The notes beneath the pieces are model-generated. The model was not told the origin of the DNA, made no database searches, and was given only the letters and a program-made list of their open reading frames with translations. This document shows, one piece after another, positions 13,965 to 19,301 of a stretch of 44,330 nucleotides of DNA. Every line of letters starts with the position of its first letter. Positions within the stretch are counted from its first letter, which is position 1. This DNA is from Methanothermococcus sp. (lineage in GTDB: Archaea > AGJL01 > Methanococci > Methanococcales > Methanococcaceae). Location of the stretch: assembly GCF_015523155.1 (NCBI RefSeq), contig NZ_WAKW01000072.1, positions 1-44,330 on the forward strand, given 5' to 3'. The translations under genes were made by a program, and so were the position numbers.

Positions 13965-15296
13965 ATGTTAAGAAAATGTCTTATTATCCTATTAGCCATT
14001 CTTCTTTTAGCGTCCCCAGTTAGTGCATTCTTTTCTTTCGATTTTTCAATGTCTCAAAGTAGGGCAGTTGCAGGAGCAACAATTGCAGCTAAAACGATAG
14101 CGGATGCAATGGTTAGCAACTACATAGATGAAAACCACCCAGAATATTCAGATGCTTATACTGTTGTTTCTTTGATATTTGACCCGACTGGGAAGGTTAT
14201 TGCCAAATTATCTTCAAAAGGAGTGAAATATGCTAATGAACTCTACAAATATCTAAAGAAAGCAGATAATGGTAAAGGAATTGTAAATCCGGATGTCGCT
14301 AATAAAATATTTGATAAAGATTTGATTGAAGAATTGGCAGAGAAAGAGAGTAAAGGCTACAGCCCAAAGACAGTTGCAAAAAATACGGTTAAATTGTTGG
14401 ATGAAGGAGTTGAGCCAGAGAATATAAATAAGTTGTTTAAAGATGCAGTTAAAAATGATAAAAAACTCGGTTGGATAGATAATAGAATAGAAACCCTTGA
14501 GGAAAATGGAGTAGATATAGATACAATAAACAATATCATCAAAAACAGTGATAAACCAAATGATGCTCTTAAAAAGGCAGTAGATGAAACTAATAAGTTA
14601 TCTAAAATGGGTATTAGTAAGAATAACATAAATAAATTAACTAAAAATATCAACAATGTAGATGATTTAACTAAAATAAGAAAAACTATTGGAAAACTAA
14701 AACAAATGCTAAAAAATAAAAATAAAATATCAAAAAAGGAAATTCCTCAAGAAGAAGTTATAAATGAACTTATAGAAAAAGGCTATGATATAAATCAGAT
14801 TGTTAATGATTTAAAATTATTCAATAAATTAGAAATTATAAGGGCCAATAAATACAAAGTCAAATTATTTGCTGGAAATGTTAATGAAGGATTAGACCAT
14901 GTATGGCTAAGACATGTTATAGGATATAACCTAGAAAACGAAAAAGCTACAACGATTTTTCCAATTGGACAGAAAATAAAATATTTCAAAAATGACAGAT
15001 TAGAAGTAGAAAATATCCAACAGATTATAAATGGCCCTGAAGAATTAAAAGAAATTATTATAAAGGCAGTTGAAGACAATAAGAATAAATTTAATGGAGA
15101 GACTAAAGTAGAGTTCTCATACTATATTAAAGATAAGAATATTAGAATAAATTTGGTTTTCTTAAGGGGTAGTGATGGTAGTTATTACTTACAAACCGCT
15201 TATCCAATTAATGGAAAAGGTGTTGAAAAGTATATCCCAAATGTAGGATGGTTTAAATATAATGAAAAATCTGGCAAATGGGAAAGAATAAGGTGA
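13965..15296 (+). CDS. Secreted polymorphic toxin candidate with C-terminal nuclease-like domain (full-length locus head)
   Basis: A 443-residue protein. The start is ATG 13965, 8 nt after a perfect AGGAGGTGA; the in-frame GTG at 13953 is inside that site. Residues 1-21 are a Sec signal peptide ending VSA. A short Ala-rich part (about 30-55) is followed by an alpha-helical region (about 80-290) built of degenerate units such as EGVEPENINKLFKDA, NGVDIDTINNIIK, MGISKNNINKLTKN and KGYDINQIVNDLK. From about 297 comes a compact domain with DHVWLRH (His312, Arg316, His317), ATTIFPIGQKI, and QTAYP at 410-414. The same domain recurs at 17548-18213. HxxxRH with a terminal AYP strand resembles bacterial BECR-fold (EndoU/barnase-like) RNase toxins; this is inference. 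The next gene, 7 nt on, is the immunity candidate; its ribosome binding site overlaps the toxin stop. Confidence 0.75.
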   Translation: MLRKCLIILLAILLLASPVSAFFSFDFSMSQSRAVAGATIAAKTIADAMVSNYIDENHPEYSDAYTVVSLIFDPTGKVIAKLSSKGVKYANELYKYLKKADNGKGIVNPDVANKIFDKDLIEELAEKESKGYSPKTVAKNTVKLLDEGVEPENINKLFKDAVKNDKKLGWIDNRIETLEENGVDIDTINNIIKNSDKPNDALKKAVDETNKLSKMGISKNNINKLTKNINNVDDLTKIRKTIGKLKQMLKNKNKISKKEIPQEEVINELIEKGYDINQIVNDLKLFNKLEIIRANKYKVKLFAGNVNEGLDHVWLRHVIGYNLENEKATTIFPIGQKIKYFKNDRLEVENIQQIINGPEELKEIIIKAVEDNKNKFNGETKVEFSYYIKDKNIRINLVFLRGSDGSYYLQTAYPINGKGVEKYIPNVGWFKYNEKSGKWERIR

Positions 15297-15303
15297 ATTA
15301 TCT

Positions 15304-15894
15304 ATGAAAATCGAATTAATATATAATAAAGAAAAATATCTAAAAAATCCTGACAAAATTGATACATTATTTAAAATTGACAATAATATACTTGGTGGTA
15401 TTGTAAAGGTTGAAGAAGGTAAAATCGAAGGTGATGACTGTAATTTATATGGGTTTTTCCAAGATATTTTAATTGGTATAGCATATTTACTTAGTTTTGG
15501 GAAAAGTGATAAATATATGTCTATATCTAAAGAAGAAATAAAAGAAATTGCGAAAATATATGGATTTCCTATAAAAAATATTGATATGGCATATACTTCT
15601 TCTTTATCTTTTCCTTTTAATAAATATATTTTTGAATTTAATAAAAATAGTGATGAGATGATAATTTATTATTATAATGATATGTATATATATGATAACC
15701 ATTTGGGAAAAAAAGGAATTATCAAAATTCCTATGAAGGAGTTCGTGAAAAATATAATTAAATTAGCTGAAGATTATATAAATTTTATTAAAAAACATAA
15801 TAATATATGGAAAGAATATGAAATTAATTTTCTTGAGGATAGATTAAGAGATGTCAAAAAATATTATAAAGAGCGTTACGGTGAAGAACTGTAA
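15304..15894 (+). CDS. Immunity protein candidate, family A, cognate to the full-length toxin
   Basis: A 196-residue soluble acidic protein with no signal peptide, as expected for a cytoplasmic immunity protein. It starts 7 nt after the toxin stop, and AAGGTGA, which includes the toxin stop codon, serves as its ribosome binding site, so translation is coupled. It is clearly homologous to the protein at 18224-18844: both have a start like IELIYDKEKY, then GDDC-LYGFFQDIL-G-A-LL, YIFE, and the identical end DVKKYYKERYGEEL. That each copy follows the same kind of toxin domain (HVWLRH or HIWLRH) is the main evidence for the immunity role. I do not recognise a named immunity family. Confidence 0.7.
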   Translation: MKIELIYNKEKYLKNPDKIDTLFKIDNNILGGIVKVEEGKIEGDDCNLYGFFQDILIGIAYLLSFGKSDKYMSISKEEIKEIAKIYGFPIKNIDMAYTSSLSFPFNKYIFEFNKNSDEMIIYYYNDMYIYDNHLGKKGIIKIPMKEFVKNIIKLAEDYINFIKKHNNIWKEYEINFLEDRLRDVKKYYKERYGEEL

Positions 15895-15898
15895 ATAG

Positions 15899-16013
15899 AT
15901 TTTTCTTTTTTATTTTTAATTAGAATATTAATTTATATGTTTAAATAAATAACCTAAATAACTATGATTTAGAAAAAACAAAAGAGATTGTTAAAGAGTT
16001 AAGAGATAAAGGA
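15899..16013 (+). repeat. Cassette boundary repeat, copy 1
   Basis: Two parts. The first 46 bp (TTTTCTTTTTTATTTTTAAT, then GAATATTAATTTATATG, then TTTAAATAAA) is shared with 17501-17547 and 18851-18900; it holds an oligo-T terminator followed by a TATA-like TTTATATG. From 15948 to 16013 a 66-bp stretch is identical to 17548-17613 and encodes NNLNNYDLEKTKEIVKELRD, the start of the orphan toxin frames. Such exact identity between cassettes whose other parts differ points to recombination. Confidence 0.85.
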
Positions 16014-16547
16014 ATAAAAACTAAGACAATAAATAAACTGATAGAAAATGGATATGATATAACAAAATTCTATGAAGAATATAAAGCTGTAACGGACTCG
16101 GATCCGGTATTAATGAAAAAATTAGCAAAATATATTAATAGTTGGGATTTGGATAGAAGTAATCCATTAGACGAATCAGAAGAAGCTCAGAAATTGATTA
16201 AAGTATTTAACGCTAAGGGAATAAAAACTAAAGTGGGTTATACTGAGATAAGTGATTTCGCCGTACTTAAAGAAGGTAATAATGCATGGGGTTGGAAACA
16301 TATTATTAAGCAGAATCACCATAACCATATTAAAGACGCATTTAAACTACAAAATAACAATAAAGCAGTAATAGAATTAATCGGAGAAGCCCTACAAAAG
16401 GGTATAAAGGGTACAGATAGTAAAGGAGCAACAGTAGTTTTTTATAAACCTGCTGGTGCAAGATATTATTTAAGAGTGGTTCTAAGTAAAAATAGTCCTG
16501 GTAGTATTCAAGATGCATATCCACAAAAAAACTTTGATTTTAAATAA
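15945..16547 (+). CDS. Orphan toxin cassette B (C-terminal toxin module lacking a start codon)
   Basis: The frame is open from just after TAA 15942-15944 to the stop at 16547 but has no start codon at its head; the first ATG, at 16113, lacks a good ribosome binding site. The N-terminal part (INNLNNYDLEKTKEIVKEL, then KTINKLIENGYDITKFYEEY) is like the helical stalk of the full-length toxin. The C-terminal part has a second type of toxin domain: WGWKHIIKQNHHNHIKDAF, YYLRVVLSKNSPGS, and IQDAYP close to the end. The KHIxxNHH and AYP pattern again suggests a BECR-type nuclease. It is best read as a silent donor that could replace the toxin tip of the full-length gene, though weak translation from 16113 is possible. 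Confidence 0.65.
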   Translation: MNNLNNYDLEKTKEIVKELRDKGIKTKTINKLIENGYDITKFYEEYKAVTDSDPVLMKKLAKYINSWDLDRSNPLDESEEAQKLIKVFNAKGIKTKVGYTEISDFAVLKEGNNAWGWKHIIKQNHHNHIKDAFKLQNNNKAVIELIGEALQKGIKGTDSKGATVVFYKPAGARYYLRVVLSKNSPGSIQDAYPQKNFDFK

Positions 16548-16560
16548 TAGGGGTGAAAAA

Positions 16561-17013
16561 TTGGGAAAATATATTTATAAAGCTGAAGTGTTAAAAATTG
16601 AGCCATTATGTATAGATGAAAACTGGACTAAAGAAAAGCCAATAGATGAATACACTTACAACTACCTCGTTACTTTAAAAATTGATAATATAATCGTTCA
16701 TGCATTTACACCAACAACTTATGGGTGGCATACATCTCTGGAAGGTAAAAGTGTATATGTGTATTTTTATTTAAATAATTTTAAAGGAGAGATAATTAAA
16801 TATGATAAACATGATAAAATTATACAATTGGATCAAAATAGATTCATGTACTCAATTATTGGTAAAATCATGGAAATTTCTAAGGATACTGAAACAATCT
16901 ATGTTGATTGTGGTATTATTATAGAAACTGATTATAATTCAGAAAATGAAGAATTTAAGGAAGGAGATTTTATTTTAATTCCTGAAGGGCGATTAGATGT
17001 ATTTAGAAAATAA
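16561..17013 (+). CDS. Immunity protein candidate, family B, first paralogue
   Basis: A 150-residue protein, predicted all-beta, with no signal peptide. The start is TTG at 16561, with AGGGGTGA 6 nt upstream; an in-frame ATG at 16513 lies inside the toxin frame and has no such site. It begins LGKYIYKAEVLKIEPL and its C-terminal half has GKIMEISKDTETIYVDCGIII and FKEGDFILIPEG. The same half recurs in the next gene (GEVLDIDRKNKRLIFDCGV, LKEGDWVFIMG), so the two are paralogues. Position directly behind cassette B is the evidence for immunity. Confidence 0.65.
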   Translation: MGKYIYKAEVLKIEPLCIDENWTKEKPIDEYTYNYLVTLKIDNIIVHAFTPTTYGWHTSLEGKSVYVYFYLNNFKGEIIKYDKHDKIIQLDQNRFMYSIIGKIMEISKDTETIYVDCGIIIETDYNSENEEFKEGDFILIPEGRLDVFRK

Positions 17014-17043
17014 CTAGTCCTAAAAGAGTTTAAGGAGATATAA

Positions 17044-17487
17044 ATGGTTAAGCACACAGGTAGAGTTACTGATGTTAAAATTACTCATGGAGAGTATGAA
17101 GACATAATTTCCGAAATTTGGATGACTTTTGATATAAATGGATATGAAATAGAAGCGTTTATAGGAGAACTTCCTTCAAAAGTACCAGAAATTGGTGAAA
17201 CATGCATAGTAGATTTAGATATAATGACATTCGACTTACAAAAAGTTAATGTTCCTAAAAAACAAAAACTAATATATCAACTCACTACAAAAGATTATAT
17301 ACCTGATTATATATTAGTTGGTGAAGTATTAGATATAGATAGGAAAAATAAAAGATTAATTTTTGATTGTGGTGTTAAATTAGAATGTGATATTAAAGGA
17401 ATAAATATAGAGTCTAAAGCTAAGAAATTAAAAGAAGGGGACTGGGTATTTATAATGGGTAAGATGTATGGATACATTGAGGAATAA
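17044..17487 (+). CDS. Immunity protein candidate, family B, second paralogue
   Basis: A 147-residue all-beta protein starting MVKHTGRVTDVKITHGEYED, with AAGGAGATATAA directly upstream of its ATG. Its C-terminal half pairs with the previous gene (DCGV, KEGDW). Tandem duplication with strong divergence would give protection against two variants of toxin B, including perhaps the decayed copy at 18894-19190; this is inference. A T-rich terminator and the second boundary repeat follow. Confidence 0.6.
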   Translation: MVKHTGRVTDVKITHGEYEDIISEIWMTFDINGYEIEAFIGELPSKVPEIGETCIVDLDIMTFDLQKVNVPKKQKLIYQLTTKDYIPDYILVGEVLDIDRKNKRLIFDCGVKLECDIKGINIESKAKKLKEGDWVFIMGKMYGYIEE

Positions 17488-17500
17488 ATATTCTTATTAT

Positions 17501-17613
17501 TTTTCTTTTTATTTTTAATTGGAATAATAATTTATATATTTGAATAAAATAACCTAAATAACTATGATTTAGAAAAAACAAAAGAGATTGTTAAAGAGTT
17601 AAGAGATAAAGGA
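17501..17613 (+). repeat. Cassette boundary repeat, copy 2
   Basis: Same two-part layout as copy 1: oligo-T tract, TATA-like TTTATATA, then the 66-bp coding segment identical to 15948-16013, again right after an in-frame stop (TAA 17545-17547). After this segment the two cassettes diverge, one to toxin B and this one to toxin A. Confidence 0.85.
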
Positions 17614-18213
17614 GTTCCAGCGAAAGTAATAGATGATTTGATTAAAAAGGGAGCTTCATTAGATGACTTAGAAAAGATATCCAAAATCAATATAAAAAAT
17701 CCTAAGAAGTATTTCAAAGAGTTAGAAAAATTCTCTAAACCAGAACCAATACCAATAGATGATAAAATAACCATTAATCTAATAGCAGGAGATACCGAAA
17801 AAGGTTTAACACACATATGGTTAAGGCACATTATGGGATACGAATCTAATGAAAAAGCTACATCATTCTTCCCTATGGGTCAGACTGTAAATGGAAAGAA
17901 ATTACCTAAGATTATAGATGATGCTAATGAGTTGAAAGAGATTATTAAAAAAGCGATAGATGAAAATAAAAAGGAATTCTTTAAAGATAAAAATGACAAT
18001 CCAAAAATTAGGTATAATTACACAAAAAATGGTAAAATAATTGAAATCGTATTAATGTTCAAAAAAGATAAGACTGGAGCATATAATCTAATGACCATGT
18101 ATCCGGAAAAAGGGGAAGGAGTGTATATGTATGCTCCAAAAAAGCCAAATGAAAAATGGAAAACATGGAAAAGAAATGATAATGGGGAATTAGTTGAAAC
18201 ATGGACTAATTAA
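17548..18213 (+). CDS. Orphan toxin cassette A (second copy of the toxin domain of the full-length gene, no start codon)
   Basis: Open from TAA 17545-17547 to the stop at 18211-18213, with no ATG at its head; a TTG at 17638 has no convincing ribosome binding site. It begins with NNLNNYDLEKTKEIVKELRD, then a helical linker (KVIDDLIKKGASLDDLEKIS), and then a domain homologous to residues 297-443 of the full-length toxin: ITINLIAGDTEKGLTHIWLRH, ATSFFPMGQTV, MTMYPEKGEGVYMY. The catalytic-looking HIWLRH is intact. The immunity gene starts 10 nt after the stop. Exchange into the full-length gene by recombination in the stalk would create a new chimera with a functional tip. Confidence 0.7.
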   Translation, partial: NNLNNYDLEKTKEIVKELRDKGVPAKVIDDLIKKGASLDDLEKISKINIKNPKKYFKELEKFSKPEPIPIDDKITINLIAGDTEKGLTHIWLRHIMGYESNEKATSFFPMGQTVNGKKLPKIIDDANELKEIIKKAIDENKKEFFKDKNDNPKIRYNYTKNGKIIEIVLMFKKDKTGAYNLMTMYPEKGEGVYMYAPKKPNEKWKTWKRNDNGELVETWTN

Positions 18214-18223
18214 AGGTGGTAGT

Positions 18224-18844
18224 ATGAAATTAATAGAGTTAATCTACGATAAAGAGAAATATAGGGAAAAAATAAAAGAGAATATAGTTTCAGAAATCGA
18301 AACAATATTTAAAGTTAATGGAATGTTGTTGGGAGGAGGCTGTCTAAAATCTGAAGGAGGGATTTATGGAGATGATTGTGATTTATATGGATTCTTTCAA
18401 GATATCCTAGAGGGTTTAGCATTCTTATTAGATGAAGGAAAACATACTAGAGAACTATATTATAGGAAAAATGTTGAACATATTGTAGGATGGAATAGAT
18501 TTAAGGTGAAAAATTTTGACTTGGCTTACGGTACTAGTTTATTTTTTCGATACAATGATTATATCTTCGAACTCGATAAAGATAAAGATGAATTAATAAT
18601 CCATTACCGTAACGACCCCTTGTCATATACTGACTGTGAGAAGTATAAAGGTAAAGAAAGAGGTATCGTTAGAGTTCCTTTAAAAGATTTCACTAAAGAA
18701 ATCGTTAAGTTAGCAGAAGAATATCTTGAGTTATTGAGAAACTCAGAGATTCCAGAGGGGTATGATTTTTACATAGACGATTTACAAGAATATTTAAATG
18801 ATGTTAAAAAATACTACAAAGAAAGATATGGAGAAGAGCTATAA
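18224..18844 (+). CDS. Immunity protein candidate, family A, second copy
   Basis: A 206-residue homologue of the protein at 15304-15894, with the same end DVKKYYKERYGEEL and the shared core GDDCDLYGFFQDILEG. The ATG at 18224 follows AGGTGGTAGT; an in-frame ATG at 18194 lies within the toxin frame and is not used in my reading. Protein identity is moderate, with more divergence at the DNA level than in the boundary repeats, so the pair is old and each copy is probably specific for its own toxin variant. Confidence 0.7.
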   Translation: MKLIELIYDKEKYREKIKENIVSEIETIFKVNGMLLGGGCLKSEGGIYGDDCDLYGFFQDILEGLAFLLDEGKHTRELYYRKNVEHIVGWNRFKVKNFDLAYGTSLFFRYNDYIFELDKDKDELIIHYRNDPLSYTDCEKYKGKERGIVRVPLKDFTKEIVKLAEEYLELLRNSEIPEGYDFYIDDLQEYLNDVKKYYKERYGEEL

Positions 18845-18850
18845 ATGCAA

Positions 18851-18900
18851 TTTTCTTTTTTATTTTTAATGAGAATATTAATTTATATGTTTAAATAAAC
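18851..18900 (+). repeat. Cassette boundary repeat, copy 3 (shortened)
   Basis: The terminator/TATA half matches copy 1 almost base for base up to TTTAAATAAA; the 66-bp coding half is missing. Sequence jumps at AAATAAA straight to CTGATAGAAAA, which in cassette B follows the same heptamer AAATAAA at 16031-16037. A deletion between two AAATAAA copies explains this. Confidence 0.75.
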
Positions 18901-19190
18901 TGATAGAAAAAGGTTATGATATAACAAAATTCGATAAAGAATTTAAAACTATAACTAACTCAGATCCTAAACTAATAAAAAAATTATCAAAATACATCAA
19001 TAATTGGGACTTAGATAGAAGTAATCCGTTAGATGACTCAGCAGGAGCTCAGAGATTGATTAAGGTATTTAACGCTAAGGGAATAAAAACTAAAGTTGGT
19101 AACACTAAGATAAGTAATTTTGCTATACTTAAAGAAGGAAATGATAAATTTGGCTTAGAACAGCGAGCTAAAATCCGAAGGATTTTTTAA
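18894..19190 (+). pseudogene. Remnant of a second toxin B cassette
   Basis: Encodes NKLIEKGYDITKFDKEFK, then INNWDLDRSNPLDDSAGAQ and NAKGIKTKVGNTKISNFAILKEGN, closely matching cassette B. It loses the match just where cassette B has its WGWKHII motif and runs into a palindromic stretch and a stop. The catalytic half and any immunity gene are gone. It shows that cassettes arrive or duplicate in series and then decay at the end of the array. Confidence 0.75.
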
Positions 19191-19275
19191 TCCCTTATCT
19201 TCTAGAAGCGAGGAGATTTTACAATCAAACGAAGTTAAAATCCGAAGGATTTATAACGGAAGGGGTGTCTCGCGG
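19164..19275. repeat. Palindromic scar at the island end
   Basis: Holds two copies of TAAAATCCGAAGGATTT (19169-19185 and 19235-19251), each a hairpin AAATCC-GAA-GGATTT, plus two AGCGAG words. It is neither toxin sequence nor part of the next gene and may mark the edge of a deletion or a small inserted element. Confidence 0.5.
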
Positions 19276-19301
19276 AATAAGTTAAATAATATATAAAAAA
19301 T

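Follow-up and report, generated by a model that had tools for sequence, protein, structure and literature searches.

A probable archaeal polymorphic toxin-immunity system with start-less tip cassettes in Methanothermococcus

What kind of system places a row of open reading frames that lack a start codon behind the gene for a secreted protein? The question is raised by positions 13965–19190 ('the island') of a 44,330-nucleotide stretch of Methanothermococcus sp. DNA ('the window'; forward strand of contig NZ_WAKW01000072.1, RefSeq assembly GCF_015523155.1), for which a sequence-only reading had proposed a set of polymorphic toxins with their immunity proteins. Our comparisons of sequences and models support that interpretation, and we consider it very probable that an archaeal polymorphic toxin-immunity system is encoded here, built upon a carrier protein that lies outside both Pfam and NCBIfam. 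The arrangement fits the definition of such a system; it is neither of the Rhs type nor borne by a contractile apparatus, and is not shown to be one of contact-dependent growth inhibition (CDI). Its carrier, its partner families and the tips found in the window correspond to no curated family in the libraries searched, and it is a variant of an established class.

Reading the island from its 5' end, we see a full-length protein composed of a signal peptide, a conserved N-terminal domain, a stalk of helical repeats and a C-terminal domain, or 'tip', followed by three start-less modules that begin with stalk-like sequence; those that are intact run on into a tip (Table 1). On re-examination of open reading frames, signal peptide and start sites, the anatomy and coordinates assigned from sequence alone proved right: the secreted protein, the start-less modules and the double occurrence of tip A, each time with a family A partner, are all borne out. 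Tip B is likewise present once intact and once as a remnant, but the reading of the two genes behind the intact copy is corrected below. The hydropathy of the full-length protein peaks at residues 5–23 and no later segment exceeds 1.4, i.e. there is no further transmembrane segment. Ribosome-binding sites precede the main toxin gene and all of the partner genes; none of the three orphan frames has a convincing start site, the first start codon of module 1 appearing only at 16113. Orphan frames 1 and 2 remain open for ~200 and 222 codons (with this composition, a single open frame of 200 codons would arise by chance with a probability of ~7e-10; <1e-9 for each of the two), and the orphan frames are homologous to intact proteins of relatives. 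A partner gene sits directly downstream of each intact tip, the tips being basic (net charge +5 to +7) and the partners mildly to distinctly acidic (-1 to -11).

Table 1. Features of the island and its 3' border (positions in the window)
Feature	Coordinates	Strand	Remarks
Full-length secreted toxin (carrier + tip A1), 443 amino acids (aa)	13965..15296	+	ATG start, strong Shine-Dalgarno GGAGGTGA; 5 further carrier genes in 4 other genomes
Predicted Sec signal peptide, 21 aa	13965..14027	+	MLRKCLIILLAILLLASPVSA; cleavage after VSA judged by eye
Conserved N-terminal domain and helical-repeat stalk, residues 22-245	14028..14700	+	dN/dS 0.15-0.19 against 4 genomes
Toxin tip A1, residues 297-443	14853..15293	+	HxWLRH...FPxGQ...TxYP; predicted BECR-like RNase
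Predicted immunity protein A1, 196 aa	15304..15894	+	soluble; directly downstream of toxin
Inter-module element, copy 1	15901..15949	+	T-rich tract and TATA-like AATTTATATGTTTAAATAAA
Orphan cassette 1: stalk fragment, pre-tip (~16092-16290), tip B (~16293-16544)	15945..16547	+	no start site
Predicted immunity protein B-a, 150 aa	16561..17013	+	TTG start behind GGGGTGA
Predicted immunity protein B-b, 147 aa	17044..17487	+	probable remainder of a B-type cassette since lost
Inter-module element, copy 2	17500..17548	+	
Orphan cassette 2: stalk fragment and tip A2 (~17767-18210)	17548..18213	+	no start site
Predicted immunity protein A2, 206 aa	18224..18844	+	follows tip A2
Inter-module element, copy 3	18851..18899	+	
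Orphan cassette 3 (remnant): stalk and pre-tip B	18891..19190	+	ends just before presumed catalytic KHI motif; no partner gene
Interspersed repeat AAAATCCGAAGGATTT...	19163..19290	.	at truncation point of cassette 3

A conserved exported carrier is one mark of a polymorphic toxin, and one is found here, its export being predicted from the signal peptide. In 36 genomes of the order Methanococcales (the set also used for our surveys of tips and partners) there are six carrier genes in five genomes: that of the window, one in G006 (which belongs to the other family), two in G023 and one each in G034 and G035. These are 75–85% identical over residues 1 to 245–281 and, in all comparisons made (four genomes), under purifying selection (ratio of non-synonymous to synonymous substitution rates, dN/dS, 0.15–0.19; dS 0.40–0.80). 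Their stalks contain repeats of ~33 aa, as in LVNLGINKENINKIIKNSKNIKEIYNCKEE / LKKMGISKENLNKIVENLKDIKDISKIRKT of G034, with one unit more in G034 and G035 than in the others. Beyond this point the proteins part company: the carrier ends in tip A in the window, in tip C in G006 and one G023 copy, and in tip B in the second G023 copy; that of G034 reaches tip A through a frameshift and that of G035 stops after the stalk; the same stalk is thus found with different tips, as the sequence-only reading had predicted for a survey of the order. Against Pfam, NCBIfam and PHROGs the window proteins give chance-level matches only, the carrier and stalk having no family there, and scans found no relatives of the stalk in genome contigs, nor of stalk or tips in viral contigs; a phage search also gave none.

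Two of these loci merit separate description. In G035 (L023:3670-4770) the carrier has a signal peptide and stalk, with neither tip nor partner gene; it may be a platform on which tips can land, or a gene in decay. The main toxin of G034 is frameshifted at ~5200, and a 357-aa transposase-like frame on the opposite strand (L022:6072-7145) splits its partner A gene.

Each of the three shared tip families occurs in both a fused and an orphan state: tip A is fused in the window and, with a frameshift, in G034, and orphan in the window, G006 and G011; tip B is fused in G023 and G011, and orphan in the window and G034; tip C is fused in G006 and G023, and orphan in G034. Moreover, the start of orphan module 1 of the window matches, in the same frame, the stalk and pre-tip of a full-length G023 toxin (83.5% over 261 nucleotides, nt), and its pre-tip matches the dockerin-bearing toxin of G011 (91% over 300 nt); orphan modules are therefore pieces that elsewhere form part of a carrier. 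Non-homologous tips on one carrier family, and orphan cassettes adjoining the main gene, are both features of polymorphic toxins that we observe here. Within tip B, the pre-tip is 65–76% identical between members, as against 26–36% for the part after KHI and 28–35% for the partners, and B tips have therefore diversified behind a constant joint.

The tips are also shared by unrelated carriers. In the metagenome assembly G011 (contig JALVUY010000138.1, Methanocaldococcaceae), stalk and tip B are carried by a surface protein (L025/L024:746-2641) that combines a binding-protein-like domain with a dockerin domain (Pfam E 5e-5, over cut-off). Relatives of its carrier part are present in 33 of the 36 genomes, and it seems that a widespread surface protein was taken over to carry a toxin. 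Tip A, for which the same contig was the sole match in a scan of genome contigs, also ends a 1340-aa TSP3-repeat protein on a Halorussus plasmid, where a 173-aa gene starts 3 nt later, and is found as an orphan behind a similar TSP3-type protein on a Haloprofundus plasmid; tip B and partner A had no matches among the plasmids. These two haloarchaeal plasmids (L038 and L039) hold further small-gene pairs beside TSP3-type carriers that resemble toxin-immunity cassettes.

Sequence profiles and structural models bear on what the tips might be. Six tip A sequences have RH, T, P and GQ in common, as well as a late T..P. A tip A relative matches EndoU_bacteria (PF14436; E 8.7e-4, 20.1 bits, below the cut-off of 25.3) and a tip B relative matches PBECR1 (PF18809; E 2.4e-4, 22.0 bits, below the cut-off of 27.6), these best scores coming from relatives and not from the window copies. 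AlphaFold2 models of tips A and B, built from very shallow alignments, have predicted local distance difference test (pLDDT) scores of 65.5 and 63.2, respectively. The PDB structures best matching the tip A model are the CdiA toxins 6cp8, 6cp9 and 6vek (E ~0.3–0.5, probability 0.80–0.92 for the best chains), with HigB2 also among the matches; for tip B the best is the CdiA toxin 7m5f (E 0.014, probability 0.99), which is also the top match of the tip B sequence profile (E 0.29). Of these, 7m5f is the CdiA-CT of Serratia marcescens BWH57, and 6cp8 and 6cp9 are those of Escherichia coli 3006 and Klebsiella pneumoniae 342. Comparison of the tip B model with viral structures gave nothing convincing. 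The barnase/EndoU/colicin/RelE (BECR) fold is recognised by a helical segment followed by a four-stranded meander, with an upstream histidine and a serine or threonine on the last strand; the tip B model has helices and then strands at 104–107, 113–117, 125–130 and 138–144, and tips A and B align weakly with each other around G..HI..RH (hhalign E 4.6e-4, probability 33%). Each below significance or curated cut-off, the sequence and structure matches together point to one fold, BECR. The tips resemble nuclease-toxin folds, though below significance, rather than the adhesin folds that would have refuted the sequence-only reading. BECR-fold RNases are the most likely identity of the tips, perhaps tRNases like their nearest structural matches; the fold is a large source of RNase toxins (PMC3482391). 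Tip C carries the motif EEIDxLTDKAVYECKN (EEID-x8-ECK), from which it looks like a PD-(D/E)xK nuclease, its profile finding nothing meaningful in the PDB. A fourth type, tip D, is present in G023 (L020:11586-13013) with its own 219-aa partner, and its motif YETEIDIETTNKIIECKG suggests another PD-(D/E)xK nuclease.

Among the genomes surveyed, strong matches to family A partners are confined to the four with tip A, and family B partners occur only in the four with tip B. There is in addition one distant, stand-alone partner A relative in G034 (G034:C1, L079:5524-6252, E 5e-13), adjoining an oligosaccharyltransferase-like gene with no tip nearby; it is possibly an orphan immunity gene. A weak partner A match in G010 was discarded, being intergenic with five stops, as were chance-level matches of the partner A profile to kinetochore proteins in the PDB. 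In the window, B-b shares 60% identity with the partner that accompanies the B tip of G034, and 28%, over 79 residues, with its neighbour B-a; more likely, therefore, it survives from a cassette since lost and does not serve as another inhibitor of the window's tip B.

How mobile are the cassettes? Positions 15242–15949 of the window are 99.4% identical over 709 nt to G006, and positions 16367–17551, which include partner B-a, 98.0% identical over 1193 nt to G011, both matches crossing to the other family; the end of tip A2 together with partner A2 is 95.4% identical over 1001 nt to G006. Across the same families the genes flanking the island are ~68% identical. Partner A1 differs from its G006 copy by no synonymous and two non-synonymous changes, and B-a from its G011 copy by none and four; set against the dS of the carrier, such near-identity indicates that cassettes move faster than the selection-kept carrier. 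Several tips have meanwhile decayed beside their partners. The orphan A2 tip of G006 has no equivalent of 17731–17847, which holds HIWLRH, and the A1-like tip of this genome is reduced to fragments; both tips lack the presumed catalytic histidines, and both partner A genes are intact; in G011 one B tip has lost the KHI half, with partner B-a intact and B-b shortened. Partners that outlive decayed tips would be the pattern expected if the small genes protect against the tips of neighbours.

The modules are separated by a conserved element of ~50–60 nt, a T-rich tract followed by AATTTATATRTTTRAATAAA, which is also present at six island junctions in three other genomes and has no strong copies elsewhere in the genome; the T-tract could be a terminator and the TATA-like part the promoter of the next module. 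The interspersed repeat at the 3' border has 32 matches in the genome, six others being 87–92% identical over ~110–130 bases.

Of recognised delivery components, RHS/YD repeats (PF05593) and the contractile sheath (PF04984) are absent from all 36 genomes, in searches whose positive controls worked, and the earlier claim of an island without Rhs or type VI parts holds to this extent. The claim also extended to CdiA parts; a search for the TPS domain of CdiA (PF05860) found nothing, but control genomes gave no match either; a Pfam scan likewise shows none in the window toxin. The likeness to CDI lies in the best structural matches of both tips being CdiA-CT toxins and in the pairing of toxin with downstream immunity gene. 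Orphan modules occur in CDI too. The island differs in that no CdiB or CdiA N-terminal part was found (the TPS controls being silent), and sequence similarity is below significance. With polymorphic toxin systems at large (PMC3482391), it shares a constant N-terminal trafficking part, a variable nuclease-like C-terminal tip, a partner directly downstream, orphan tip-immunity cassettes and probable recombination at the tip; unlike them, its carrier has no recognised RHS, filamentous haemagglutinin, WXG/LXG, MuF, PVC or protease part, and its stalk and partner families are outside Pfam and NCBIfam. Polymorphic toxins of archaea already form a recognised class (PMC3482391; Makarova et al. 2019, as cited in PMC8416519, PMC6869823 and PMC11452385). 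They were described as rare, comprising Methanosarcina RHS proteins, simple barnase-barstar pairs in some methanogens and haloarchaeal PVC systems (PMC3482391); Makarova et al. 2019, in the accounts given by PMC8416519 and PMC6869823, reported them in 141 archaeal genomes, with tips that are mostly DNases or RNases. The haloarchaeal TSP3 loci probably belong to that set, and a prior listing there of these Methanococcales genes is possible. As of 2021 the archaeal systems were predicted, without experimental characterisation (PMC8416519).

Several observations weigh against reading the island as a toxin system. No tip reaches a curated family cut-off, no structure match of tip A or B has E <0.001, and both models are of modest confidence; the partner families have no recognisable relatives, and no homology was detected between haloarchaeal partners and partner family A. 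Neither delivery machinery nor a processing protease was found. The dockerin-tip B fusion is provisional, the G011 contig being thin (coverage 1.7), and the system is often broken, as G034 and G035 illustrate. This last point, together with the truncation of module 3 at an interspersed repeat and the split partner of G034, might indicate a decaying island without present function, either what remains of a toxin system or a collection of defunct transferred fragments. We think this very unlikely: the main toxin of the window and 4/4 partner genes are undamaged and begin at good start sites, purifying selection acts on the carrier throughout, and some cassettes arrived too recently for any synonymous change.

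A variable surface protein would also display a signal peptide, a helical stalk, silent cassettes and variable ends, all of which are features of antigenic variation. On this view the carrier would be an adhesin, or a protein associated with the S-layer, that evades viruses or alters its binding by drawing new ends from the silent cassettes, and the small genes would be chaperones or co-transferred passengers. There is an archaeal precedent in the VARTIG of Thermococcales (PMC8416519), a secreted protein whose C-terminus is hypervariable and whose gene is followed by others downstream; VARTIG, however, has Ig domains and no recognisable toxin-like domain, as against the helical stalk and nuclease-like tips of the island. 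We regard such a protein as unlikely here, given tips that resemble nuclease toxins rather than binding domains and that occur on unrelated carriers, with each tip family having its own soluble partner family that lacks a signal peptide, and partner genes that outlive tips which have lost their histidine motif. Could the pairs instead be intracellular addiction modules of the RelE/BECR type, which acquired stalk fragments by chance beside an incidental secreted gene? The BECR fold does include RelE and HigB, HigB2 is among the structure matches of tip A, and the tip-partner pairs resemble two-gene modules. Yet the free-standing toxin with its own start that characterises type II toxin-antitoxin pairs is not what we see: the orphan tips lack start codons preceded by a ribosome site, the main copy begins with a signal peptide, four intact genes join tips to carriers that have signal peptides, the partners come after the tip and show no match to a DNA-binding family, and the carrier is conserved by selection; we consider this explanation highly improbable.

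Returning to the polymorphic toxin system, we envisage that a single active gene produces a carrier exported by Sec, as its signal peptide implies, whose conserved N-terminal domain and helical stalk would present a C-terminal RNase tip of BECR type. The soluble product of the downstream gene would be the immunity protein, holding the tip inactive in the cytoplasm of the producer and its kin. The start-less modules would be silent tip-plus-immunity cassettes, and recombination via the shared stalk may move one onto the carrier, swapping tip and immunity together, an event suggested by the coexistence of fused and orphan states. Old immunity genes may be kept after their tips decay, conferring resistance to neighbours that still use those tips; the likely targets would be related Methanococcales, among which cassettes move. 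A more specific proposal, that the N-terminal domain of a plain Sec-exported carrier itself takes the RNase tip through the S-layer and membrane of neighbours with no injection machine, that exchange among thermophilic genera and families keeps the polymorphism, and that the immunity genes form an inherited record of resistance, is one we hold tentatively and would judge rather less than an even chance.

The island offers a compact (5 kb) set of small, soluble predicted toxin-immunity pairs in an order with genetically tractable members, and natural experiments are already present: the same tip fused or silent, partners intact behind tips without the presumed active site, and cross-family cassettes that are 98–99% identical. 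Kin competition in archaea, the route of entry into an archaeal cell and the exchange of cassettes among thermophilic methanogens would all be testable through it. Taken at the level of sequence, the island suggests that heat-loving methanogens fight one another with exchangeable protein weapons, as bacteria do.

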